Part shown: positions 2,940 through 64,000 of the stretch, one piece after another
How positions within the stretch are numbered: position 1 is the first letter of the stretch
Layout of the letters: each line of letters begins with the position of its first letter
NCBI RefSeq assembly: GCF_025698545.1
Contig: NC_068569.1
Coordinates: forward strand, 16,306,001 to 16,370,000
Direction: 5' to 3'
Length of the DNA stretch: 64,000 nucleotides
Source: Gossypium raimondii
Lineage: Eukaryota; Streptophyta; Magnoliopsida; Malvales; Malvaceae
The notes under the pieces: model-generated
Database searches by the model: none
Seen by the model: the letters and a program-made list of their open reading frames with translations, nothing else
Told to the model about the DNA's origin: nothing
Made by a program: the position numbers and the translations under genes

Positions 2940-4235
2940 TTAGCCAAAGGCACATTTAAAATATGCAACTCTTAAATTTAAAAAAAAAAAAAAGTACTAA
3001 AACCCAAAGTTGCTGCTGCAAAGTGGGACAGAGCTTTGATTGAATCAACTTCCAGGCAAAATAGAACCCTCACTACAATCCGTTCTTTTTTTTTTTCTAT
3101 CACCAGGATAGGTCCACATTCATTGAACTTATGTGGGTAAAGACACTGCTGATTTTAGCATGCAGATAAGATGAAAAATGTGTGGTTAGCATGTTTTGGC
3201 ACTTTTTCTTTTTAGTTGCCTCCAAAGTTAAAATTTTGATTTGAGCTCGATATATATGGCTCCAATGAGTGATGCAAAGGAGTTCGCTGAACCTGAAATC
3301 CAATGCTTATCCAAATATGAATCATGTGGAGATGAGTGGAGACTGCTGTTTTTGTACAATTGATTTATTGTTCATTTTGCATGTCTTTCAGGAAAAAAGT
3401 AAAGCTTTTGAGTGGTAAAAAAGAAAGAAAGAAAACAGTTTTGTTTTGGCCTACAGCTATTTCCAATTTGATGTAGCATTAATGAGCTTTTGTTGAGGTG
3501 CAAAACAACCAGCAGCAAGCTTGCTATTTTCAAATGTTGCTCAATTTGTACTTTTTTGTCACAAAATACAAGTTGGAGAGATTTTGTACTTTTAAACAAA
3601 AAAGGTCAGTACTAATAGTTTTGTCTTCCCAAGTGTTCACAAGCAAAACTACAAATCCCGTAAATATTATTATCCTAAGACTTAAACAAAGCGTAGCATT
3701 TATTTATTTAGTTAATGGATACCACCTCGTGTCTTAGTTATTGCTCTGTCAAAACTGGGAATCCAAAGTTTTAGAGAATATTTCCTTCCCAAGAAGATGA
3801 AAGATGACTTTATTTGAATTCAGTTTTCTCTAAACCAATATAAAATGATTCTGAGGAATGAATGTCGTCATGAGATCTGGTTGCATGGTCTGGCTCCACT
3901 ATCCCTCATCGTTCTCCTAGAATAGCCAAAATTCTCAACAGAATATACATCGATTTCCCCCAAATTTTCAAATGTAGGGAGTAAAATATGAAGGCGGTGG
4001 GTAAATTAATTAGTAGTAAATGTCAATCTTAGTTTAATGCCTGGAGCACAGGCCATATTCATTCATGAAATCTGACATTTGTTCAAAGTTCTTTTGCCCT
4101 TTAAAGAACCAAGGAAAAGAAACAAAGATCACCCATATTAACACCAAGACAAATGGAAAACCTCCCCCCAAACTAGACCATAAAAAACATAAAACACATT
4201 GGCTTAATCTTAATTAGCCTTTTTCTCTTTTGGTC

Positions 4236-4967
4236 TTAATGAAACGCTGATGTCTCAGCTGATAACGTGGAGCTCATATATTCTCTAACCTCTCTTGCTA
4301 TCACATCTCTCATCACATCCCAAAACTCCGCCGGCACCCTTTCTCTCTCCTCCTCTCCGCCACAACCACCGCACTTCTACTACTAACACCACTACCAGGC
4401 GGCGCTAGAGTCAACGCCGTCAACGCTTCCTCTTCTATCATCACTTCCGTAGATCCCAATGCACAATGATCGCCACCATCCATTGGCTGATGAGTAACCC
4501 GTAAGATCTGTTGCTGATGTTCTTGTTGCTGTTGCTGTTGATGATGATGTTGCCCTTCCCTTGCCCTCCTCTTCAACGTCGAGTTCAATGGTTTTCACAG
4601 CATTATCAGTCCTTCCCGGCAGCAATCTAGCAATGGTGGCCCACCTGTTACCATACCGAGCATGAGCGGCCAAGATGGTATCATCCTCAGCTTGGGAAAA
4701 CGGACGGTGCTCAACATTGGGGCTAAGCTGGTTACACCATCTAAGCCTGCAAGATTTCCCTGATCGACCCTTTATATATCGGCTAATCAAAGACCAGTTT
4801 CTAGGCCCATATCTCTCAACAAGTCGAGTCAAAATCCTATCTTCCTCAGCACTCCAAGGACCTTTGATCTTCTCAGCTCTGTTTGAACCCCTTGCAGATA
4901 AATACGAATCCGAAGAAGATGCATCAGATGATGATGTAGAAGATGAGCATCCATTCACTGCTTCCAT
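4236..4967 (-). pseudogene. R2R3-MYB gene, copy 1, frameshifted
   Basis: This is the same gene as 6710-7444 but with at least three single-base losses. Two lie close together (a C near 4585 and a T near 4591-4594); the third is a C near 4341-4343. The first pair shifts the frame exactly where the second MYB repeat should finish, so the last conserved Trp of R3 (in the NHWNSTLK stretch) is lost and translation ends soon after in an unrelated tail. The R2 repeat and most of R3 (residues up to about 127) remain readable. As written the sequence cannot encode a full protein. Because every difference from the intact copy is in a base run, a sequencing or assembly error is at least as likely as true gene death. 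Confidence 0.75.
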
Positions 4968-5120
4968 CTTTAATCACTTACTCGACAGTAAAAAAGAAGA
5001 AAACCTTCTCTTCTCTTTTCTTTTCCTTTTCTCTCTCTCTTTTGGGGTTTATATTTGTTTGTTACTTTAGGGGTGTGGCGAAGAATGAGGATGAGGCGAA
5101 AGGGTGAAGGAGTGGGGTTG

Positions 5121-5130
5121 TTTATATATG
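5121..5130 (-). promoter_or_regulatory. Putative TATA box of MYB copy 1
   Basis: On the - strand this reads CATATATAAA, about 155 bases upstream of the ATG at 4967. It is identical to the element in copy 2 because it lies inside the duplicated unit. Confidence 0.45.
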
Positions 5131-6709
5131 GAGAAGGAAAGGTGGATGAACACAGTAGGCGCCTAGCATTTGGAGAAATGGGGTACTTCCAGGAAACTGG
5201 CTTTTGTAAAGTTGGTGGGGGTCCAACTATAGACCATAGAGAGCAAGGTTTCGGTAGATGCGCACCCTAGGTTTATTACTTATTGCATTGGGTTTATTAT
5301 ATCATTTTCGGTTCCTTGTTAGAGCATAATATCTTGTCATTCTGTTTTGTCTTCACTTGCCAATTTACCATTTTGGATCCACCTTTACTTCTCTTCTTGT
5401 GTGATGATTTTCATTTAGCCAAAGGCACATTTAAAATATGCAACTCTTAAATTTAAAAAAAAAAAGTACTAAAACCCAAAGTTGCTGCTGCAAAGTGGGA
5501 CAGAGCTTTGATTGAATCAACTTCCAGGCAAAATAGAACCCTCACTACAATCCGTTCTTTTTTTTCTATCACCAGGATAGGTCCACATTCATTGAACTTA
5601 TGTGGGTAAAGACACTGCTGATTTTAGCATGCAGATAAGATGAAAAATGTGTGGTTAGCATGTTTTGGCACTTTTTCTTTTTAGTTGCCTCCAAAGTTAA
5701 AATTTTGATTTGAGCTCGATATATATGGCTCCAATGAGTGATGCAAAGGAGTTCGCTGAACCTGAAATCCAATGCTTATCCAAATATGAATCATGTGGAG
5801 ATGAGTGGAGACTGCTGTTTTTGTACAATTGATTTATTGTTCATTTTGCATGTCTTTCAGGAAAAAAGTAAAGCTTTTGAGTGGTAAAAAAGAAAGAAAG
5901 AAAACAGTTTTGTTTTGGCCTACAGCTATTTCCAATTTGATGTAGCATTAATGAGCTTTTGTTGAGGTGCAAAACAACCAGCAGCAAGCTTGCTATTTTC
6001 AAATGTTGCTCCAATTTGTACTTTTTTTTGTCACAAAATACAAGTTGGAGAGATTTTGTACTTTTAAACAAAAAAAAGGTCAGTACTAATAGTTTTGTCT
6101 TCCCAAGTGTTCACAAGCAAAACTACAAATCCCGTAAATATTATTATCCTAAGACTTAAACAAAGCGTAGCATTTATTTATTTAGTTAATGGATACCACC
6201 TCGTGTCTTAGTTATTGCTCTGTCAAAACTGGGAATCCAAAGTTTTAGAGAATATTTCCTTCCCAAGAAGATGAAAGATGACTTTATTTGAATTCAGTTT
6301 TCTCTAAACCAATATAAAATGATTCTGAGGAATGAATGTCGTCATGAGATCTGGTTGCATGGTCTGGCTCCACTATCCCTCATCGTTCTCCTAGAATAGC
6401 CAAAATTCTCAACAGAATATACATCGATTTCCCCCAAATTTTCAAATGTAGGGAGTAAAATATGAAGGCGGTGGGTAAATTAATTAGTAGTAAATGTCAA
6501 TCTTAGTTTAATGCCTGGAGCACAGGCCATATTCATTCATGAAATCTGACATTTGTTCAAAGTTCTTTTGCCCTTTAAAGAACCAAGGAAAAGAAACAAA
6601 GATCACCCATATTAACACCAAGACAAATGGAAAACCTCCCCCCAAACTAGACCATAAAAAACATAAAACACATTGGCTTAATCTTAATTAGCCTTTTTCT
6701 CTTTTGGTC

Positions 6710-7444
6710 TTAATGAAACGCTGATGTCTCAGCTGATAACGTGGAGCTCATATATTCTCTAACCTCTCTTGCTATCACATCTCTCATCACATCCCAAAAC
6801 TCCGCCGGCACCCTTTCCTCTCTCCTCCTCTCCGCCACAACCACCGCACTTCTACTACTAACACCACTACCAGGCGGCGCTAGAGTCAACGCCGTCAACG
6901 CTTCCTCTTCTATCATCACTTCCGTAGATCCCAATGCACAATGATCGCCACCATCCATTGGCTGATGAGTAACCCGTAAGATCTGTTGCTGATGTTCTTG
7001 TTGCTGTTGCTGTTGATGATGATGTTGCCCTTCCCTTGCCCTCCTCTTCAACGTCGAGTTCCAATGGTTTTTCACAGCATTATCAGTCCTTCCCGGCAGC
7101 AATCTAGCAATGGTGGCCCACCTGTTACCATACCGAGCATGAGCGGCCAAGATGGTATCATCCTCAGCTTGGGAAAACGGACGGTGCTCAACATTGGGGC
7201 TAAGCTGGTTACACCATCTAAGCCTGCAAGATTTCCCTGATCGACCCTTTATATATCGGCTAATCAAAGACCAGTTTCTAGGCCCATATCTCTCAACAAG
7301 TCGAGTCAAAATCCTATCTTCCTCAGCACTCCAAGGACCTTTGATCTTCTCAGCTCTGTTTGAACCCCTTGCAGATAAATACGAATCCGAAGAAGATGCA
7401 TCAGATGATGATGTAGAAGATGAGCATCCATTCACTGCTTCCAT
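6710..7444 (-). CDS. R2R3-MYB transcription factor, subgroup 22-like (MYB44/70/73/77 type)
   Basis: Intronless frame of 244 residues. R2 spans about residues 34-84 ([20 protein letters not shown] ... [19 protein letters not shown]) and R3 about 86-135 ([20 protein letters not shown] ... [18 protein letters not shown]), with the regularly spaced Trp residues present. The [25 protein letters not shown] block, absence of introns and the C-terminal [17 protein letters not shown] helix are typical of the MYB44/73/77 clade. Members of that clade are nuclear DNA-binding regulators of stress and auxin or abscisic-acid responses. A His/Gln-rich stretch follows R3, and a short [10 protein letters not shown] segment resembles the clade's LxLxL repression-type motif. 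The ATG at 7444 is preceded by a plausible UTR and TATA box. The exact orthologue is not assigned. Confidence 0.9.
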
Positions 7445-7600
7445 CTTTAATCACTTACTCGACAGTAAAAAAGAAGAAAACCTTCTCTTCTCTTTTCTTT
7501 TCCCTTTTCTCTCTCTCTCTTTTGGGGTTTATATTTGTTTGTTACTTTAGGGGTGTGGCGAAGAATGAGGATGAGGCGAAAGGGTGAAGGAGTGGGGTTG

Positions 7601-7610
7601 TTTATATATG
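7601..7610 (-). promoter_or_regulatory. Putative TATA box of the intact MYB gene
   Basis: The - strand reads CATATATAAA about 157 bases before the ATG at 7444. A CT-rich tract (about 7480-7520) lies between it and the start codon, as is common in plant 5' UTRs. Confidence 0.5.
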
Positions 7611-7898
7611 GAGAAGGAAAGGTGGATGAACACAGTAGGCGCCTAGCATTTGGAGAAATGGGGTACTTCCAGGAAACTGGCTTTTGTAAAGTTGGTGGGG
7701 GGTCCAACTATAGACCATAGAGAGCAAGGTTTCGGTAGATGCGCACCCCTAGGTTTATTACTTATTGCATTGGGTTTATTATATCATTTTTCGGTTCCTT
7801 GTTAGAGCATAATATCTTGTCATTCTGTTTTTGTCTTCACTTGCCAATTTACCATTTTGGATCCACCTTTACTTCTCTTCTTGTGTGATGATTTTCAT

Positions 7899-46100: not shown

Positions 46101-46625
46101 GATTAAGGCAACCAAATATTTATTTTCTAGTTCTAAATCTTTTAAACTATCCTGTAAAATGTATCGTTTGAGAAAAGGAAAGCTCATCTTCACCTAAGAG
46201 TCAAGATTGAATAGCAGCCACAAATTTTCAAATGAGGAAGATATAAATAATATTCTATACGAAGCTGAAACGTAATCCAAGTTAACAATAGTTTCTTCCA
46301 ACTAAATATGAATCATAATTATTAAATTTGGACTGACCCGACGAACGAACTGATCGACTAGTAGCCGTAGTTCATATTTATTCATGGAGCACACGACCTC
46401 AAACCTTAGCTATGTCATATATTCGAATCACCGAGTGTCCCTTTTCACTCACAAAAGATTAAACCAATAATGAATCCAAACCCTACAAAAAACTACTTGG
46501 GGGGGGGGGTCAAAATTCAGTTCCGCTCCACACCTGGAGGGATTTATATAAGAATTCTACCCAACCAAGAGAGCTACGCCTCTCCTCTAGTGTGAGTTGT
46601 CTACTTACTAGAGCTACTTCTCTCC
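43180..46625. other. Promoter side of UROS and repeat-rich intergenic DNA
   Basis: 43180 to about 43400 is the 5' flank of UROS. A - strand open frame at 43459-43665 is listed separately. Around 44240-44420 the AT-rich block ending 'cccttagattcgcctctgaa' resembles the tail of an abundant retroelement family. 44400-45130 is less AT-rich but has no open frame. 45400-45800 contains repeated phrases such as 'aatcaaaatttatg' that suggest a decayed miniature element. A G run sits at about 46500-46509. Confidence 0.4.
43459..43665 (-). CDS. Small hypothetical protein (68 residues), uncertain
   Basis: The frame starts MMKRRAKTRQPPRGPEPYNY and ends with a PQSIMMDPA tail. Its composition is more balanced than that of other short frames nearby, with Pro, Arg, Gln and Ser spread through it, and the DNA is locally GC-richer. 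I recognise no family. It lies about 280 bases upstream of the UROS start codon on the same strand, so it could also be part of an upstream exon or chance. A weak TATA-like string ('ttataaaata') lies near 43782. Confidence 0.25.
   Translation of the reverse strand: MMKRRAKTRQPPRGPEPYNYNGQQIWRLKQEPGISTVFSVSSMENDGASGKSAPSHYLKPQSIMMDPA

Positions 46626-46679
<54 letters not shown>
46626..46679. repeat. ATT trinucleotide microsatellite, about 18 units
   Basis: An uninterrupted run of 'att' repeats on the + strand (AAT on the - strand). On the gene strand it begins two bases after the TGA stop of the RBP45/47 gene, so it forms the start of that gene's 3' UTR. It is likely to be length-polymorphic. 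Confidence 0.95.
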
Positions 46680-46680
46680 C

Positions 46681-49600
46681 TCAGTTTACTTGTTGCTGGT
46701 AACTGCCATAGAATGGATAAACTCCATACGCAGCCGTATATATACCCGGGTTATGAGGTGGTGGAAAAGCATATCCATAGCCATCATACACCGCTCCTCC
46801 ATAGTAAGCTCCACCCCATTGGTTACCATAATCTGCTCTAAACTGCATTATCCCAAAATATTAGTGAGATAAAATAGAGGTAGTTTATATTTAAGTGATA
46901 GATATCATGACTTTTCAAAGGTTTGTTTCAGAAAATGTCATCACAAATTAGTAATCTTTATGAAAATAAAATTCCACTCTACTCTTCAGTACCTCTCATC
47001 CATTTCTGTCGAAGCATGTAGTGACAGCTATCTTAATGCTGCAATCAACAATGCAAGGGAGGGTAAAGTGGGGGAACTATCGATAAAAAATAGATACCTG
47101 CTTATTTGTAGGATTGCGTCCCCAAGAGAGTCTCACTGTTTGCTTGCCAATTATAGTCCCATTCAACTTTTGCAATGCCTCCTCAGCATTGTTCCTGTCA
47201 AGACTCAAGAATTCACATCAAGGTAGTAACTAAATGACACCTCTAATCTAGCACTGCAAATTAATGGCAAAACCAGAAAAATAACTACAAAATTTACCTC
47301 CCGGCGAATTGTACAAACCCGCATCCTTTTCCAACAGGTATTTTAACAGAGACTATTTCACCATATTGAGAGAAAGGTTGCCTAAGATCTTCTTCAGTCA
47401 CATTAGGGTCAAGCCCTCCAACAAATATCTAAAATAACTTTTGATCAGCCAAGAGGCACAAAAGATGATAATCCTAAGAGGTAAAGTTGGAAGAACTTAA
47501 ACTCACTGTTGTGTTTGACGAATCTCCATCAGATTGGGATGAAGCACTATTTGATGCATAACCACCTACCAAGAATAAAAGGAAGCAAATATCAAGCAAA
47601 ATCCTAAAAGCTTAAAACCATAAAAAGAGATAATAGATGGAAAAGAATGAATAGAAACCACAAATAGTATATTGGAAACAAGGACATAAATTCTCGATCA
47701 CATATAATATAAACTTGAGATAACCCAATTAACTTCTTGTATAAACCACAATCCTGTGGTGGTTTCAATTGACAAAATTCATGTAGATGAATACCGTTAA
47801 ATACTTAAATTTTCTCAAATCTGCACTTCATAGTACCAGTTTCTTCATTATACTAGTTGTAACAACAAGAAATAGTTGAACTATCCTTAGCACCTTCTAA
47901 CAATTCCTATCCTATGAAAACCACCCAAAGGAAGAAAATAATTTTCATGATTGTATGATAAAATGACAATGGTCATAAAAAACAAGCTTAAAAAGCCCCT
48001 ATTAAAAGAGGCTATACCTAGTTGCCCAATAGAAGGGTAAAGTGGGATTTGTAAACACTTTCTTCCTCAAACAGAAAAGTAGCACTTTATTTCCCAACAA
48101 ACCAACTATTCTACACCAACACATTCTATAATCAGAAAAGAGGCAGTCAAACAACAAGAAGAGAGAGCCAAGTTAGACAATTATAAATTGTCTGATACGG
48201 AATCATTGATTTCCTTGGTGCAAAATTAAGTCAAAGTGGGTGGGGCAAAAATAGTCAACTTTTTCATCAAAAATTGCAGAGGATCCTCAAAGAGCATATA
48301 TATATATACATGTGTGTATACACATGTACATTCAGACATAGAAGTACTGGTAACAACTCAGTAAAGAGGTAAATGTAGGAACTTTAGCAATAAAGTTTAA
48401 GAAATTAAAATACCAATGCTTGTAAACTTAAACAAAATGTGCATAAAGAAAAAGCAAGTTAATCAAATACCTTGTAAAGAATACTGTTGCTGATAGCTAG
48501 ATGATTTCCTGGGAGTTGCAGCACCAATACGCATAGGCCTGCTTGAACAATATACACCATTCATTTCCGTCATGGCAAGTGACCTCTCAGTATCATCCCC
48601 AAACCTCACAAAACCGTAACCCTTTGATCGACCAGTATTAGCATCAATTACGACTTTTACAGCTTTAACAGAAGGATATTTACTAGCAAAGGTTTCATGC
48701 AATAGGCTATCAGTAACATCTGCAGCTAAATCTCCTACAAAAATAGAAAGATCAGGACCATTTTCTGAGTGCTTATCTCCCATGCTAAAAGTTGCCCAGT
48801 TCAGACGGAAAGGTTGTTCCATATTAGGCATCAAAATGCCACTATAATTTTGGAGAACTTTCTCTGCTGTTGCATGCGAAAAAAATTCCACAAATCCATA
48901 TCCTTCTGACAGACCAGTCTGCTTATTGCGAATGACCTTAATTGATGAAATCTGCTCAAACAATTTCCAATTATCAATTTAGTTTGACATGAAACTAAAA
49001 CTCTTAAAAGCAAAGTCCAACATTTCTTTAACTTTCTTTTCATACAAGTTCCAATGCCTTCTCAATTCAATAATACTAAGTTTGAGCTTATGCAGTCTCA
49101 CTATCACTATGTGTTAACCTCACATGAAGCCAAATGCAACAAATTTCTTGCATACATGATACATTGATTCAAGGCAAACATTCAAAAAAGATGGTTTTAA
49201 TTTATCCTGAACTTAACGTTAAATTTAACCTCAACATTTATTCTCTAAACAACTTTTTGACATTCCAGACTATATCTTCATACGTCAAAATCAAATTCTT
49301 AACCTATTTTAGGCTTTACTTAATTAAGTTATTTTTGGTATTATTTCCTTTTAATCGCCTTAAATAGCCAATGAGGAATTCATCTCACCCTGTCAGCCAA
49401 TTACTTGTTCAGACTCATCTCATTCGTGGTATTTGATTAGCAATCAAGTATACAACTACATGCCAGCCAGCAAAAGGATCCAAATGCCTTAATCATAGTG
49501 CAAATCCTATCTTTTCCTAACTAAGACCTAAAGTATTCGTTAAGATTGCTAGTTAAAGAAATATTCTCCATCCAATAAAATTCGATAATGATTTTCTTAA

Positions 49601-50275
49601 TTGTCAATGGAGATGCATTTAATTGAAAATATTTCCATAAACAGTACTAAGCAAGTGTCCCAATAGCACTCCTATGTGTATATACATAGATTAAAGATTA
49701 AAGAGTACAAGAGAACATTAATCAATAATTCATACTGACTATATTAATATCAGATAGCTTTTGTTTTAGGATAATATTAGTGTTATGACTGCAGAAACCA
49801 CAACAATGACAATGTGCAGTACTCATCATTCAATATCATATAAAAAAGAGATTAACATGAAATAATAGCAAATTATAATAAATATATTCACGAGATATAG
49901 TTCAACCTCGCCGATGGAAGCGAAACAACTATGAAGGTAGTTCTCGTCCATCCAATGATGCAAATCACCAACCCAAATGGTTTTGTTCTCACCGCCATCG
50001 TTGGATCCTTGCTGTTGTTGTGCGTGTTGCGCGTTGCCATGGTGGTGCTGGTATTGGTGATGATGGTGGTGATAAGGCATGTAGTGCTGAGGTGGAGGTG
50101 GCGGCGCCACAAAGTGCTGCGGTTGCATCATCTGATGCTGCATTACCATAGCTGTTGTCGGATACTGCATCGCCACCCACTGCGGATGCGATTGTAGCGG
50201 TTGTTGTTGTCGCTGGTTCTGTTCCTGCGAAGGTTGTGTTGGTGATTGCGAATCCGAACCGTTGTTTTGCTGCAT
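46681..50275 (-). CDS. RBP45/RBP47-type RNA-binding protein with three RRMs (6 exons)
   Basis: Exons, in gene order: 50275-49907, 48951-48471, 47565-47507, 47428-47298, 47194-47098 and 46842-46681. Phases close to give 432 residues. The N-terminal 95 residues are Gln-, Pro- and His-rich with runs such as PPPPPQHYMPYHHHHHQYQH. RRM1 starts at IWVGDLHHWMDENYLHSCF (about 99) with RNP1 EGYGFVEF (about 139-146). RRM2 starts at SIFVGDLAADVTDSLL (about 192) with RNP1 KGYGFVRF. RRM3 starts at IFVGGLDPNVTEEDLRQPFS (304) with RNP1 GCGFVQF. The C-terminus is rich in Gly and Tyr. This layout is that of plant RBP45/RBP47 oligouridylate-specific hnRNP-like proteins, which bind poly(U) or U-rich RNA in the nucleus and join stress granules. 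The exon 1 donor (GAG|GTTGAA) is weak but fits family length. The 955-base first intron is the longest. Confidence 0.94.
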
Positions 50276-50503
50276 CCTTATCTTTTTATTACAATTATTG
50301 CTATCTCTATTTTCAGTTTAAGAGAATATAAATAAACAAACAAGACTCCAATGGTTATTTGAATTGAATTCTTTCTAATTATTTTCAGGGAAACGAAAAA
50401 TATAGAAGAGAGAGAGAAAGGTACGGCTAGGGTCTAAGCAGAGGCTTTAACGAAGGGTGATGGGATGAGACGGATGATTTACTTCGATGGTTTCATCACA
50501 ACC

Positions 50504-56212: not shown

Positions 56213-59200
56213 GGAATAATTACCATTGAAAGGAAAATGTGTCCTGTAGGACGCTTTTTTATTCTCTCTCCTAAAAACTCTTTCCTATAAGGTGCTTTTT
56301 CATTTATGTGGTAGTAAAAACGCGTTCTGTAAGATGCATATTCATTTCTCTCTAAAAAAACAATATAAATTGGTAAATTTCAAAAATTTCAATACACTTT
56401 CCCAATTTTCTTTTTCAACATATACATATAAATCACCCATTTATTTACACTTAAAAAAAATTATGTTTACTACAAAATTTATTAAATGATAAAATTAAAG
56501 ATTATTTTTAAACTTGTGATATGCATGTAGAGGAGGCAAAATGGGCTCGAGCATGAGAATTGAACTCGAAAAACTCGAGTCCGAACTCTTTTTAAACTCA
56601 ATTTAATTAAAAAATTAAAAATTTAAACTTTAAAAATTCAAACTCTAAAAGGCCCGAACTTAAAAAAGCTAAACTCGAAAAAACTCGAACTTAAAAAAAT
56701 CGAACTTGAGACTAACCCAATCTCAAATTTAATAATAAAAGAAAATAATCTAACTATGATTAAATATTTTTATAAAAAATTTAATTATTAGTTTGATTCA
56801 AATATTTTATTAATAAAAATATTTTTTTTATTTTATGTATAATGAAATAGAAAATTTTGGAGAAAACGAGATTACCGCTATTACGCAAACACCAAAATCT
56901 ATATGATATTAGTACCTAATTTTAAACTTATTTTCTTCAATTATTTGTTTTTGTATTTAGCTTCTAATTTTTGGAATGTAAATTTATATTAGATAAATTA
57001 ATTCATAATTAGATGTTTTAGATCTAATAAACATTTATATATTATACAAGTAATATATTTTATTTCAACTATTGATAAAACAATTAGAGAAAATATAAAA
57101 ATCAAAGCTATTAGGGTTTAAACTTTTGTGTCATCAAATAATAAAAAAAGGGTGTTTTCTTTTAAGAATTAAGGACAAATACATTTTATACTTAAAATTT
57201 TTAATTTTATTTTTTTATACTTAAAACATATAATATATGTCATCAAATGCTAATACATGAAAGTATCATGTATTTTAGAATTTGAAGTAATATATTTTAA
57301 ATAATTATTATATTTTATTATTTAGTATTAAATATTCTCAAATTTTATATGAATGCAAATTATAATGTCTTTGATTAAAAAATAGAATGTCAAGTTTTTA
57401 TTTTAGTTTATTTTGTTGTACCAATAAAAATAAATTTTTTTAAGAGACTCGTTTCATTTGTTAAAAGTTTTGTATTTCATAGTGAATACTGAATACTAAA
57501 ATAAATTCTAATGTATTATCTCATAGTCAAGTTTTTCTAATCAGTTATTTAAAAATTCAATATAATTAACTTGTAATGTGTCATATTTTTATAATAAAGT
57601 TATTTAAGTTTTATGTAATAGATTATTTTATATAATTTTAATTAAAATATAATTAAAATTATTATATTACAATAAAAAATTATTTAAAATATAATAAATT
57701 ATAAATTTATATTGAGATATAAACATTTAAATTATGTAGATATATACATACTTACATTGAATGTAAATCAAACCCGAAACTGAACTAAACTCGAGACCGA
57801 ACTCAAAATAACTCAAATCCGAAAAGGCCCAAACTCGAATCTAAAAAAAGTCAAACACAAAAAGACTCGAACCTGAAAAAACCCAAACCATAAATAACTT
57901 AACCCGAATTCACCCAAACCTGCCTGGTTGCCAACTCTATATGCACAGGATATTCTCTTTAAACCATGTGTGAGTTATTAATCCATATTTATTCTAATTT
58001 ATATTCCACCATATGTAGGCTTTATATAGATTTATTCTAACATAGGTTTGAATGTATTTTGATCATCATCCGATCAGATTTTATAATGATTAATTTTATT
58101 ATTCAAATGTAATTTTGTAATTGATATTATGAGTATAGTTATAACTATCAAAGAAAAACTTACGTATATTAATTGAAAATTATGTTTATGTTTAAACATA
58201 TAATTATATTAGAATATATTATAATTTATAATTTAATTTAATAGTAATTAGATTTTTAACATTTTTATTTAAAATATTGAAGATAATAAAATAAACAGAA
58301 GAATGATTCAAGTTTTCCTTTTATTTAAATTTATTTTAGGTGGAATTTTTTTGAAAATAAAACTTTTAAAACTCATTCCTAAGGAAGAAATCTAAAACAT
58401 CATAAATCACAATTTTAACTTATTGGAATGGAATAGATTTATAACGGAATGTTATTATGAGGGTGTGGAACTAATTTTATAGAATAGAATAAATATTTTG
58501 ATTAGGTTGAAAAGCATCGTCATATAATACGTATTATATTGTTTTGATCGGTTAAATTGTTTTTAATAAATACATGATTGATATATAGGTATAAATTAAA
58601 AATTTTACCCTTAATTTTAATTAATGTATTTTATTTATATTACTTTTAAAATAGAATTTTAAAGAATCTAAATAAACTATATTTAATAATAAAATGTGCT
58701 AAAATAACAATTTATTTTAAATACATTTACTTAAATGATATTTATTTTTAATAAATCACCCTTTAATAAATATTTGAATGTAAATTAATTTTTTATATAC
58801 TTTTACTTTTTTCTACTCCTCTCAGCTACATTAATATTGTCTCTAATATCCATTATCATTGACCACTATTTTCTTATATGTTACTCCCTTTCTTCCTCCT
58901 TCTTCCTCTTTGAAATTGAAAACCCCATACTCTCTATAAAATTTCAAAACCTATTTTATTTTCTACGTGAAACCTTATTTTATCTTTTATTATTTTTGAA
59001 AATCTACTTAATTTCTAATTTTCTTTTATCTTCCATGCATAAATGTTTTTTTTTCTTGAATAAGAATGTCAGCAAACAAATTTACTCTATTTAATGAAAG
59101 TGAAATTAAGAAGGTGTTGAATGGCTTTTAAAATATGTTTTTTAAGTAATATTACATTTCGTGAACTAAACATCTAGATCTTACATTCTAGCAAAATGGA

Positions 59201-59434
59201 CTAAATAATGTAATGTGACATTAAACCTATAATTTTATATTCGATGATCCTATTATGAAATATAATCTTACATTATTTTCAACACATGTTTTAAGAAAGG
59301 ATTTTAATGAAATCTTCTTAGTTCTAATTATGTACATAGATCTCTATGTTCTTAAGACTTCTTAAATTTAATTTTAAGAATTTAATCTTTTATTTATCTG
59401 ATTTGAAATTTCAAATCAAATTGATAATACTGAG
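56213..59434. other. Very AT-rich intergenic DNA with two CTCGAA-rich arrays
   Basis: Two related stretches, about 56550-56715 and 57765-57915, consist of irregular repeats built on 'aactcgaa(aaa)' and 'ccgaactc'. They are in direct orientation about 1.2 kb apart, with AT-rich DNA between. They may be the degenerate ends of one element or two copies of a dispersed repeat. No open frame here is supportable; the 85-codon frame at 58837-59094 is phenylalanine- and leucine-rich noise. Confidence 0.45.
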
Positions 59435-59936
59435 TCTCCTTACATCAACCTAACTACAAGGAAATTTAAACTCTTTGATTATATATCCTTAGAATTCAAG
59501 ATACATAGTAACTATAATCTTCTTGCTGAGTTATGTAAACTAATTTACTTAAATAACCATTTTAATGTGTTATGCGTGCCTTTTTGTGCGCAGACCGTGA
59601 CACGTGGGACTAGTGCACAGGCAGGTGTTGTGGGCTTACCTGTGGCTAGTTGCTAGGCTACAAATTTGAGCCTCTAGACCCGTACGAAAAGAAAAAGTTT
59701 CCAATAATTCTGAGCCCAAAAAGCCCAATTCGAACATTTATTCAAACAAAATTAGACTACTATAAGTAGTTGGATCTTATGTAAATCAAATAAGAAACGA
59801 TGTTAATGCCATGTGGCAATGCAAAACCGTATGTACCCATCATTACTCACCATTTACTTTTCAATTCAATTTCTCTTTTCTCTTGTAGATAATATATTGT
59901 TCCAATCTCTTCCTCGTATTTTGGTTGAGTTTATTC

Positions 59937-60015
59937 ATGCTAAAAAGCAACCTTATTTTTGCACTTCCATTCTCTTTGCTTTCCTCATATTCACTCATGG
60001 AATCATTAGTTCATA
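59937..60015 (+). pseudogene. CEP precursor fragment: signal-peptide end only
   Basis: The counterpart of the first 24 or so codons of the gene at 60890. The ATG (59937) and a hydrophobic run are still visible (SNLIFAL, then ILFAFLIF in the next frame). A one-base loss near 59967 breaks the frame. Homology ends at 'ggaatca' near 60006, before any mature peptide. It also lacks the promoter TATA box seen in copy B. It cannot make a peptide hormone. Confidence 0.75.
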
Positions 60016-60018
60016 GTA

Positions 60019-60240
60019 CACATATGATTAAAATTGGGAGAAATATAATACAGACGTAGTACGATAAACCCAGTTATTATCATCAATGGCAAGTTCAATA
60101 GAGTGGCCCGCATCGGGATTGTGACTGCGAGGCATGGGATGGACATCATTAGTGCCATATACAGCATTGACATAGCCAGCCGAGGTGTCCTCTAAAATGT
60201 CATGGTTAAAGTTTCTCTTATGGCTGCTTATCATCACTTT
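60019..60240 (-). pseudogene. CEP precursor fragment: C-terminal half with degraded peptide motif
   Basis: Matches the C-terminal half and 3' flank of the intact gene at 62498-62800: SSHKRNFNHDILED against SGHKRSFNRDILED, and AVYGTND against AAYGTND. The 15-residue peptide domain reads DVHPMPRSHNPDAGH here against DVYPTPRGHSPGAGH there, so conserved Gly and Ser positions are changed. The normal stop after DDNN is lost and the frame runs on for about 13 codons. The signal peptide is missing. It lies tail to tail with the fragment at 59937. Confidence 0.78.
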
Positions 60241-60756
60241 TTGTCTTTGAGTCCCCTTACATCAACCTATGTTTATTACATGTTTTTAGAGTTCAAATTA
60301 ATCTGTTAACTATAATTCACTGAATCAATATAAGTTTCAAGTAGATGTACCTTCAAAAATGCTTCAAGAATTAGACCAGTCTTGATGAAGTAAGCCTAAT
60401 TTACTCAAATAATCATTTTAGGGTGTTATGCGTGCCTTGATCACTAATTTTTTATGTGCGGACCGTGACACAGGCAGGGTGTTGTGGGCTTACGGGTGGC
60501 TAGTTGCCAGGCTACAATTTTGAGCCTCTAAACCGGTGCGTAAGAAATGGTCTCCGACAGTTCCAAGCCCAAAAACCCCAATTCAACATTTATTGAAACA
60601 AAATTAGACTGCTCTAAGTACTCTTTGCACAATGTCGAGAAATAGAAATGGGGAGCAATAATTTCGTCTAAGAACGTGGACCTGCAATTGCATCCACTAA
60701 GTAGTTGAATCTTATTTAAATCAAAGAAGAAACAAAGTTAATGTCATGTGGCAGCC

Positions 60757-60764
60757 TATAAATA
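60757..60764 (+). promoter_or_regulatory. TATA box of the + strand CEP gene
   Basis: TATAAATA within 'gcctataaataccc', 133 bases before the ATG at 60890. The paralogue at 62800 has the same TATAAATACCC string at nearly the same distance, which supports both calls. Confidence 0.75.
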
Positions 60765-60889
60765 CCCAGCAACGCAAAGCCGTATGTACCTTGCATCTCA
60801 TCATTGCTCGATCGTCATTTACTTTTCAATTCAGTTTCTCTTTTCCCTTGTAGATAATATCCCTTCCCCGTATCTAGTTTAGTTTATTC

Positions 60890-61198
60890 ATGGCAAAAAA
60901 CAACCTCATTTTCACACTTGCCATTCTCTTTGCTTTGCTAATATTAGCTGATGGAATCAGATTTACCGAGGAAGTTAGACTTTCCAAGTTAGACAAAGAT
61001 GAGTACTACTCGGGAGAACTGGTAACAAAGACCCTGACTCGCAGCCGTAATAAGATCGAAGATAGCCGGGGCATACATGGAGCAGATGCTGCTGCTGTTA
61101 CCACCATTTCCGCATCCAATACCAAGGATTTGCACGCCACAACCCCTGGCCACAGTCCCGGGACAGGTCATTCAACTCCACCTAATGGCCATAAGTAG
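60890..61198 (+). CDS. CEP-family signalling peptide precursor (C-terminally encoded peptide)
   Basis: 102-residue intronless precursor. Residues 1-22 or so (MAKNNLIFTLAILFALLILADG) are a secretory signal peptide. A charged, variable pro-region follows (KLDKDEYYSGELVTKTLTRS). A single peptide domain near the C-terminus, residues 80-94, reads DLHATTPGHSPGTGH, followed by an 8-residue tail. CEP hormones are 15-residue secreted peptides, usually hydroxylated on Pro, perceived by CEPR receptor kinases and acting in nitrogen-demand signalling and lateral-root control. The TPGHSPGxGH core and its placement fit this family closely. It differs from classical members in lacking Pro at position 4 of the 15-mer. 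The start is set by the signal peptide and a TATA box 133 bases upstream. Confidence 0.85.
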   Translation: MAKNNLIFTLAILFALLILADGIRFTEEVRLSKLDKDEYYSGELVTKTLTRSRNKIEDSRGIHGADAAAVTTISASNTKDLHATTPGHSPGTGHSTPPNGHK

Positions 61199-62497
61199 AT
61201 ATTAGTTAGCAAGATCTACATCACATGTATGTAAGATAATTATCATTATCTACTGCAAGCTGGTATTGCGGGGTTCTCGTATGCTATAAGATGAGCTCTC
61301 TTATGAATATATATATACATATATGTATGTATGTCTTGTTAATATGATCTGCTGCTTCCAGAATGTTGATTACTTCCGTCGTGTGGGGTTTTAATAAGTA
61401 GGCTTTGATCTGTAATAAAATTCATCTTAATAGCATCTTTGGTTTCTCATGGTTTCCCTAGTTTCGACTTTCGAGATGTCTTTCATCGTGTGCAGACTCT
61501 AGCTGAAGCTATAAAGCTTTGTTTTTATTTTGCAAAATGGAGCACTAAACCAAATAAAGCATGCCACCGAGTTCAATCAAAATGATAACTAATATTGAAT
61601 CTTAATATATATAAACTAATTTCTTTCATCTTTAGATAGCAATCTTTTTTGCGTTAAAAAACGAAATAGAACATGTTATATATAACATGAAAAGAGCATT
61701 TTTCACATATCATCACTTACTGTTTTAGTATATTAAATTTGTAGGTGTTATATGTATACACACACTTGAGATTATAAATTTAACCTATATTTCAAAATAG
61801 TTTAATAAAGGTGTGAAAAATGAATGAAAAACTGAAAGTGTTAATCAGCAATTGTTAAGTGCAGAGAATGATAGTCAAGGATTCAATGGTCGCCACCGAT
61901 CACAAAACAAGAAGGAAAAAATAGAATAAAAATTAAAAACAACAATCATAGCTTATCTTCAAGTTGCAAAGAGATCCAAAAAAAAACCTTTAAAGATGCA
62001 CGAGGCATTTAAATTAATTAAAAAGACAACTCCAAACCTCTTATTATATTGGTGGGATTTTATTATTTATTATTTTTATTGGTTTTCAGGTTTTGCAAAA
62101 GAAAAGAACACCTAAACACAAACTAGATTATTAAATTTAATTATAAATTTACTTTCTAGAAACACAAAATTAGAAGTAAACAATACATTAAAGATTTAGG
62201 TTTTTGAGGAATATTTTGAAGTTGATGTAAAATAATTTTCTAAATTTAGGAATATCAATTTTATTATTTTATTGATTCATGTTGCCGTGGCTTATTTTAT
62301 CCTCCATGTTTAATACATTATCATACATCTAGATGCGTAAGCACAAATCATCAGAGCCCTTCAATTAAGGAAGTTATTACATAACCATAGGATCCACCTA
62401 TGAGATTGATTAGAAAAGCAACATAAATTATCATTATTTCACAGTATGGACATATATGATAATACTTGGGAGAAATATAGTACTACTTGCCGTAAAC
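61199..62497. other. Interval between two convergent CEP genes
   Basis: Holds both 3' UTRs. The + gene's tail includes a 'tatatatacatatatgtatg' stretch near 61309-61330 that could form a hairpin. The remainder is AT-rich with no open frame. Confidence 0.55.
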
Positions 62498-62800
62498 CTA
62501 GTTATTATCATCACCGGCATGTCCAGTAGAGTGACCCGCGCCGGGACTGTGACCGCGAGGCGTGGGATAGACATCATTAGTACCATATGCAGCGTTGACA
62601 TTGTCGGCCGGGGCGTCCTCTAAAATGTCACGATTGAAGCTTCTCTTATGGCCGCTTGTCATCACCTTTGTTACGTAGTTTCCGGACTCAGCCAAATTTT
62701 CTGCTTTTGAAATCTTAATCCCTTCACTAATTGCAAATCCATAAGAAAATAATAACCAAAGTACAAGGGCAGCAGCTAAAATAAGGTTGTTTTGGGCCAT
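62498..62800 (-). CDS. CEP-family signalling peptide precursor
   Basis: 100-residue intronless precursor. The signal peptide spans about residues 1-26 (MAQNNLILAAALVLWLLFSY). The pro-region contains SGHKRSFNRDILED. The peptide domain, residues 76-90, reads DVYPTPRGHSPGAGH, with a 10-residue acidic tail (STGHAGDDNN). It shares the MA-NNLI start, leader sequence and TATA context with the gene at 60890, so the two are diverged paralogues in convergent orientation. The 15-mer keeps Pro at positions 4, 6 and 11 and the terminal GH of CEP hormones, but Arg replaces Gly/Asn at position 7. Secreted-hormone function is inferred from family membership. Confidence 0.85.
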   Translation of the reverse strand: MAQNNLILAAALVLWLLFSYGFAISEGIKISKAENLAESGNYVTKVMTSGHKRSFNRDILEDAPADNVNAAYGTNDVYPTPRGHSPGAGHSTGHAGDDNN

Positions 62801-62927
62801 TGGGGTGAGTGAAAACTAAGAATGGATAAGAAAATTCTAAGAGGAAAAATCAAAGTGAATAAGGAATTGTTATACTAGAGCGATGACTAATGATGAGAGG
62901 TGCCCTTAAAGCTTTTGCCTCATTGGG

Positions 62928-62935
62928 TATTTATA
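62928..62935 (-). promoter_or_regulatory. TATA box of the - strand CEP gene
   Basis: The - strand reads TATAAATACCC, 128 bases upstream of the ATG at 62800. It matches the paralogue's promoter. Confidence 0.75.
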
Positions 62936-64000
62936 GACTAACAAATCCGGCGTATGCTGGTGTTGATTATCAACTAGTCAACGTTAAACGTTTACAATGG
63001 CTGCTACCGAATGGAGTCTTATGGGTTATTATGATCTCTGTCTCTGTCCCCCTTTGGCTAATTTCTTCGAAAGGACAGGCTCAGTGGTGTGCTAGCTGTA
63101 CCTATACTGCTATTTCTGCATGTCCCATGCAATTATATTTTGGAATTGGAACATAAATTACATGGAATATGGTGGAAGAAACTTGCACGCATTTACTATC
63201 TGAATGAGACTTTTCTGGTATAAAACCAACATATATACACACACTTGTCTTTCTTTTAATTTGCTCCTTCAATCTGCCTTCAATAAGTTCTTGGAATTAC
63301 TGTTCATGCATCACAAGTTGGAATAATGCATGCGTCTAATTTCATTGTTCATTCACTGAAAAAAAAAAGGAAATTCCTCATGAAAGCACTACTGCTACAG
63401 CCAAGCCGCCTTTTAATTTTCATTTCAACTAGAAGTTTTAAAACAAGTATACGTTCATGATTTTTAAGCTTTCTGCAAGTATCCTAATCTGCTGTATTAA
63501 TTAACTTCCAAGTTCAATTCTTTCTGCAGTTACTCAGGAATCAATGGCCATAACAAAAGCATACAAGAGACTAACATTTAAAAAAGAAATTAGTATCAAA
63601 ATCGATACCAAGTTTTGTTTTGTTTTCCAAAGAACATAAAGTGGTGAATCATTATCTAAGTGTCTTTCAAAGTTTCTCGTGTCCTTCAAACAATAGATGC
63701 CGGCCTTTAAAGTTTCAAACAATCACTTCATACCTTGTTTGACTTAAGTATTGGCAGCTCAACATTAGATGGTCGAAGTACCAAGTATTATTCTTTTTTT
63801 TTCTACTGCAATACACGAATATATAAATATATTTACTTTGCAGTCTCTACTATTTTAGAGTTAACCATGGTTGCGTGACAAGCTAGGGCAGGCAATTTCG
63901 TACAATTGGGTCGGTTATTATGATAAGAATCAAAGAAGGATTTTGTGGGGCACTGCCGACCGGAAAATCTTCTTCCATGTTAACTTCAAATTGTAATACT
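62936..64000. other. Upstream DNA of the - strand CEP gene, no gene seen
   Basis: Promoter side of the CEP gene followed by ordinary AT-rich sequence. Open frames at 62890-63156 and 63534-63722 have no family resemblance. Confidence 0.5.

Follow-up and report, generated by a model that had tools for sequence, protein, structure and literature searches.

Two CEP-type genes and a collapsed locus

The DNA analysed here, referred to as the window, is a 64-kb stretch of the Gossypium raimondii genome (C5:16306001-16370000), and its right part carries two small genes, A and B, with a collapsed locus next to A (Table 1). We regard it as very probable that A and B belong to the CEP (C-TERMINALLY ENCODED PEPTIDE) family of plant hormones, that they descend from group I but deviate from its canonical prolines, that each has a single exon and a TATA box, and that a tandem copy of the pair once arose and left a fused relic. 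The anatomy of the genes, their relatedness to other CEP genes, the duplication of the surrounding block and the structure of the relic were observed directly in the genome.

A and B are convergent (tail to tail) with 1.3 kb between their stops. Both precursors have the same layout, i.e., a hydrophobic N-terminus, a poorly conserved middle, a single CEP domain and a short C-terminal extension. Members of the family are recognized by an N-terminal secretion signal and by a 15-residue CEP domain that lies near the C-terminus after a variable region (Ogilvie et al. 2014, PMC4197245), and A and B have both. Their secretion signals were judged from hydropathy alone: the 12-residue hydropathy peak is 3.10 at residue 7 for A and 3.00 at residue 6 for B, and the hydrophobic residues are 6-18. 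Since each precursor is one open frame, both genes are predicted to have the single exon that is a further mark of the family.

The motif SPGxGH was found at only two sites in the six frames of the window, one in each gene (61154-61171 on the plus strand for A and 62531-62548 on the minus strand for B), and at a mean of 0.0 sites in 60 block-shuffled windows. In place of the published CEP matrix, for which the criterion is P < 6e-11, we used three plant CEP matrices of our own, one from 11 distinct domains of the same genome outside the A/B group and the others from 13 or 12 printed domains. Degenerate repeat domains of the multi-domain precursors on C2 (IAGHSPGVGH type), two matches to the strict pattern described below, and group II and AtCEP4-type peptides are omitted from these matrices. 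On each of the three, the domains of A and B took ranks 1 and 2 among 127,912 six-frame 15-mers, scoring 32.6-35.6. Among unrelated 15-mers of the window the highest score was 7.4, for one that contains a stop, and the domain in the relic scored 5.1-7.7. The original prediction of two convergent CEP-type precursors with different 15-residue domains was thus borne out by the reading frames, the motif sites and the matrix ranks.

Table 1. CEP-related features of the window, with the closest genomic paralogues found for A and B
Feature	Position	Strand	Description
CEP gene A	60890-61198	+	102-aa precursor, single open frame; one CEP domain, DLHATTPGHSPGTGH; extension STPPNGHK
CEP domain of A, DLHATTPGHSPGTGH	61127-61171	+	Ala4, Pro7, Ser10, Pro11, Gly14, His15
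TATA box of A	60757-60763	+	133 bases 5' of ATG, within CTATAAATACCCA
CEP gene B	62498-62800	-	100-aa precursor, single open frame; one CEP domain, DVYPTPRGHSPGAGH; extension STGHAGDDNN
CEP domain of B, DVYPTPRGHSPGAGH	62531-62575	-	Pro4, Pro6, Arg7, Ser10, Pro11, Gly14, His15
TATA box of B	62929-62935	-	135 bases 5' of ATG
Block upstream of B	63516-63971		Conserved at C5:23.24 Mb and C6:1.34 Mb; no extended reading frame seen
Relic A'	59521-60005	+	Second A, of which the 5' flank and the start of the signal peptide remain; like 60380-60959; coding part stops at the junction
Relic B'	about 60018-60241	-	Second B, of which the 3' part (codons about 44-100) remains; like 62450-62669; no signal peptide; stop codon lost
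A'/B' junction	60002-60005		Shared ATCA, 4-bp microhomology; found in A at 60956-60959 and in the 3' flank of B at about 62430-62433
Putative segment formerly tandem-copied	60249-62669		Right break within the reading frame of B; proposed from alignments and sequences
Paralogue, intact	C3:17564218		Domain DFQPTTPGHSPGAGH; 54% identity to B; Pro4, Pro7 and Pro11 all present
Paralogue, intact	C5:23240358		Domain AFRSTTPGHSPGAGH; Ser4, hence no Pro4
Paralogue, intact	C6:1340054		Domain DFRPTTPGHSPGAGH; Pro4, Pro7 and Pro11 all present
Paralogue, broken	C6:1348578		Frameshifts and missing bases right after the start; otherwise closely similar to C6:1340054 throughout the gene

Relatives of A and B in the host genome

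The host genome (750.8 Mb, 281 contigs) was searched with a strict G[HN]SPGxGH DNA pattern in which the serine is encoded by AGY, and 32 matches were found, compared with 1 for the reversed control. The same pattern with a TCN serine gave 0 matches in the whole genome (control 1), as expected if the serine never passed through another residue. A large CEP array lies at C2:1623928-1721953, where 19 of the 32 strict matches fall within about 98 kb, multi-domain precursors included.

Among the paralogues found in the genome, those closest to A and B are C3:17564218, C5:23240358 and C6:1340054 (hereafter C3, C5b and C6a), together with the broken gene C6:1348578. The three intact ones are full-length, and their domains are nearer to the canonical one than those of A and B are. 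The CEP-type identity claimed for the two genes is upheld by these full-length paralogues, two of which have the complete proline set, and by the full layout of A and B. C6a and C6:1348578, which are 8.5 kb apart on the same strand, form a second tandem CEP pair of the A/B subfamily. A match on C7 (E 0.72, 28% identity) was left unused.

A tree was made from 13 chosen precursors; it omits the multi-domain genes of the C2 array, one near-identical C2 gene and the broken copies, and one C2 row begins at a later Met. In this tree A, B and the three intact paralogues group at 91/91, and B stands beside C3 at 87/86. The similarity extends to the 5' flanks. The stretch CTATAAATACCCA around the TATA box of A is kept in five intact genes, with one base different in the C5:23.24 gene, and CTATAAAT[AT]CCCA is kept in 5 of the 5 intact genes compared, its TATA lying 91 to 135 bases 5' of the ATG.

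A gene at about 46475-50369 of the window, which we take to be of the RBP45/47 family, has a counterpart adjoining the CEP genes at both C5:23.24 Mb and C6:1.34 Mb, and the protein identity to these two regions is 89-92% for one piece of the frame and 51-60% for another. A stretch past the right end of the window (75.4-79.6 kb in window numbering) recurs near the C6 copy. Stretches upstream of B are also found at the C3 copy; there was no RBP match in the 18 kb covered near it, about 13 kb of which is on the expected side, so that C3 shares the upstream side alone. A search of Rfam with 58500-64000 at E up to 1 gave 0 matches, and the conserved block upstream of B is therefore not a described RNA; it may be regulatory.

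A relaxed CEP motif scan found one domain in each of the loci L044 to L047 (L046 and L047 being C6:1340054 and C6:1348578) and none in L042 and L043. Of the two C6 genes, the second closely copies the first and lies on the same strand, so none of these regions showed a counterpart of A. Because the RBP neighbor and the upstream block recur at the paralogous regions, B most likely stands where the ancestral CEP gene of a duplicated chromosome block stood, with A as an extra, inverted neighbor. An ancient genome multiplication is part of the history of cotton.

The collapsed locus is a fusion of two relics

The claim of a dead third locus held in part: a dead neighbor is present, but it is not one gene. 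The collapsed locus at about 59432-60241 consists of two relics joined together, the front of a second A (A') and the back of a second B (B'). A' is 87% identical to 60380-60959 over 453 aligned bases with 13 indels, and its 5' flank contains neither a TATA match nor the CTATAAAT[AT]CCCA stretch. The longest ungapped match between B' and B is 84% over 177 bases, and the domain of B' has decayed to DVHPMPRSHNPDAGH, in which Gly8, Ser10 and Gly12 are gone.

The order of the relic pieces fits one tandem copy of 60249-62669 followed by a deletion of about 1.47 kb at ATCA. The A and B pair would have been copied in tandem, with the copy broken inside B, and the stretch of about 1.47 kb would then have been lost through microhomology, the likely outcome being a fused relic that lacks a TATA box, a signal peptide and Ser10; this order of events is inferred from the alignments. 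Since the right break lies inside the reading frame of B, B' probably never possessed a signal peptide.

After the junction, B and B' differ at 27 bases. When the polarity of the changes was assigned by simple majority among up to four paralogues, 19 fell to B' (14 amino-acid-changing and 5 silent) and 7 to B (4 and 3), with 1 unassigned. Within the domain, B' has 4 amino-acid-changing and 2 silent changes and B has 1 (at site 3) and 0, which are small numbers. The dS values are 0.27 for B and B' (56 codons) and 0.53 for B and C3 (94 codons). Pro6 and Arg7 are common to B and B', and hence these changes predate the tandem copy.

In the 5' flank of A, about 80-125 bases at about 60333-60460 recur on C1, C8, C11 and C2 at 73-75% identity and represent a dispersed repeat.

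Selection on A and B

The number of amino-acid changes between two genes was compared with that in 300 neutral simulations in which the count of base differences was fixed at the observed one. For A, the changes fall below the neutral expectation in all four comparisons: against B, C3, C5b and C6a, only 6, 1, 0 and 0 of the 300 simulations were at or below the observed number. For the domain of A alone, the four comparisons, which share branches, gave P values of 0.045, 0.051, 0.037 and 0.009. As judged from these substitution patterns, A is shown to be under coding constraint.

Several results weigh against the assignment proposed above or against parts of it. Canonical group I domains have Pro4, Pro7 and Pro11 together, and this full set is missing in both genes, A being without Pro4 and B without Pro7; the loss of Pro4 (Ala4) in A and the Arg7 of B are both read in the sequence, as the original prediction had pointed out for the Pro4 loss and Arg7. 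The domains of A and B scored 34.0-35.0, compared with a lowest leave-one-out score of 40.9 among the 11 other domains of the genome. A Pfam scan of three proteins (A, B and the relic frame) returned 0 families. None of the 10 inner branches of the tree reached the strict support mark, so the fine branching order is loose. For B against C3, C5b and C6a, 101, 21 and 36 of the 300 neutral simulations were at or below the observed number, and the domain of B alone gave P values of 0.29, 0.87 and 0.02 in the same comparisons, which share branches. The count of in-frame gaps varies with the gap penalty (5/5 or 5/11 for B and C3), and such counts were dropped as proof of coding for this reason.

With respect to the family, the scores of A and B (33.3-35.6) exceed the lowest among the 13 printed CEP domains (29.2, SlCEP11). 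Standing below the domains of their own genome but above the lowest printed one, the two are CEP-like yet divergent. The core from Gly8 to His15 is intact in both apart from the variable site 13, which is Thr in A. Ser10 and Gly14, reported to be necessary for the activity of MdCEP1, the apple CEP1 (PMC6387203), are kept in A and B, and Ser10 is gone in the relic.

With respect to B, coding constraint is not clearly shown by the simulations, and its apparent intactness rests on the reading frame, the TATA box and the domain core. The comparison of B and B' looks neutral overall (204/300). B has stayed free of stops, as did 414 of 2000 sequences simulated neutrally, so the open frame is weak evidence. 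One explanation is that B is fading, with its frame still open, selection gone and the gene heading to the relic state. We consider this unlikely, though far from negligible. B differs from C3 by 43 amino-acid changes against a neutral mean of 44.8, which is near neutral drift, and it lacks Phe2 and Pro7 in a subfamily where copies have been lost (C6:1348578 is broken and A'/B' is dead). C3 and C6a, however, give a similar result (80 of 300 simulations at or below the observed number), and relaxed change outside the domain may therefore be normal. Moreover, B retains 100 open codons, stop-free for what that is worth, with a hydrophobic N-terminus, a TATA box, Ser10, Pro11, Gly12, Gly14 and His15, and the domain changes since the split, few as they are, fall mostly on B'.

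Comparison with known CEPs and possible ligand divergence

The commonest group I CEP domain of rosids is reported as DFRPTAPGHSPGVGH (PMC4197245). Canonical group I CEPs resemble A and B in having a signal peptide, a variable region, a 15-residue C-terminal domain with the SPGxGH core, a short extension and a single exon. Compared with them, A is without Phe2 and Pro4 and has Thr13, whereas B is without Phe2 and Pro7 and has Pro6 and Arg7. A survey of cotton reports 35 CEP genes in G. raimondii, describes clusters and proposes segmental duplication, and Thr13 of A falls outside its printed core motif SPG[V/A/I]G[H/N] (PMC11050269). CEP gene clusters are known in tomato, soybean, pea and cotton (PMC9562649, PMC11056954, PMC9739355, PMC11050269). 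A text search of the literature with five sub-strings of the domains plus near variants gave no published match.

GmCEP-XSP3 from soybean xylem sap, DFQPTDPGHSPGAGHSSPH (PMC9369194 Table 1), ends in SPGAGHS as B does, and a CEP with such an ending is thus produced and sap-borne. It has Pro4 and Pro7 and, unlike A and B, which are known only as sequences, it was detected by mass spectrometry. SlCEP11 of tomato, GFSPYGRGHSPGIGH, is like B in its Arg7, Pro4 and GHSPG core and sits in a CEP gene cluster, but differs in Gly1, Tyr5, Gly6 and Ile13 and comes from another plant family; it is reported to be active on tomato roots, promoting growth as SlCEP9 did (PMC9562649). Loss of Pro4 is reported for PsCEP1 D2 (PMC9739355) and for domain 1 of GmXAP6b, a proposed domain that was itself undetected (PMC9369194 Table 1).

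The route described for the family comprises secretion, proline hydroxylation, release of about 15 residues and perception of the CEPR1/CEPR2 type (PMC4197245, PMC12494267, PMC11649690, PMC9369194). By analogy, the precursors of A and B would be secreted with removal of the signal peptide, their peptide prolines would be hydroxylated, and proteases would free a peptide of about 15 residues from Asp1 to His15. Receptor kinases of the CEPR1/CEPR2 type would then perceive the peptides, and root and shoot growth may thereby be tuned to the nutrient or stress state. The expression, processing, receptor and function suggested here for A and B are those of the family.

The residue changes in A and B had been taken to suggest diverging ligand specificity, which is not supported as stated, since Arg7 and the loss of Pro4 have both been published in CEPs. 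It is possible, and not favored by us, that the two ligands diverged in receptor use, with Ala4 in A and Pro6/Arg7 in B shifting the binding among CEPR1, CEPR2 and RLK7-type receptors; we would give this only a minor chance. Their domains are the lowest-scoring among the intact genes of their group, Arg7 is older than the tandem copy (the relic has Pro6-Arg7) and hence persistent, and the sequence-divergent AtCEP4 is reported to use RLK7, which CEP1 does not bind (PMC11649690). On the other hand, SlCEP11, which has Arg7, promoted root growth in tomato, Pro4 has been lost elsewhere, including in C5b with its Ser4, the core is conserved in both genes except at the variable site, and the changes in B may be drift since its constraint is unclear. 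Less probable still is a fuller scenario in which two neighbors in one duplicated block each lost a different canonical proline and became separate ligands with shifted receptor preference, the Pro6-Arg7 of B predating the tandem copy.

Membership of A and B in the PIP/PIPL family or in group II of the CEPs, rather than in group I, is very improbable. A C-terminal GxGH is common to all these families (PMC4526919), and group II CEPs (AtCEP13-15) even share the C-terminal SPGxGH. PIP/PIPL membership was ruled out because the SGPS motif before GxGH is absent from both precursors, and group II membership because both have His9 instead of the Pro9 of the PSPG core, group II CEPs also being without Pro4 and Pro7 (definitions in PMC4526919 and PMC12494267); furthermore, the closest paralogues have group I type domains. 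That A and B are chance open frames carrying a chance motif is hardly credible, for although short open frames are frequent in plant DNA, the excess of strict matches over the reversed control, the full-length paralogues of identical layout and the conserved TATA stretch all argue against it.

We thus regard A and B as ordinary members of a known, fast-changing family, accompanied by a well resolved relic. They add two non-canonical CEP sequences and this relic to a family linked to nitrogen status and immunity. As a natural pair, one without Pro4 and the other without Pro7, they are useful for testing which prolines govern receptor choice. The locus also illustrates the gain and loss of genes in CEP clusters, with a tandem copy cut within a gene and then a microhomology deletion. 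If the genes are ordinary, the finding amounts to good annotation.

Other features of the window

A tandem copy of about 1.6 kb, 99.3% identical, lies at 3800-5400 and about 6275-7885 and contains a gene that is presumably of the MYB type. An open frame of 246 aa is present in the right copy (6713-7450, minus strand), and in the left copy the frame (4395-4973, minus strand) departs after ...TDNAVK. A MIR8643 microRNA precursor lies at 230-378 on the minus strand and scores 146.1 bits, the gathering score being 135; the MIR8643 family belongs to cotton.

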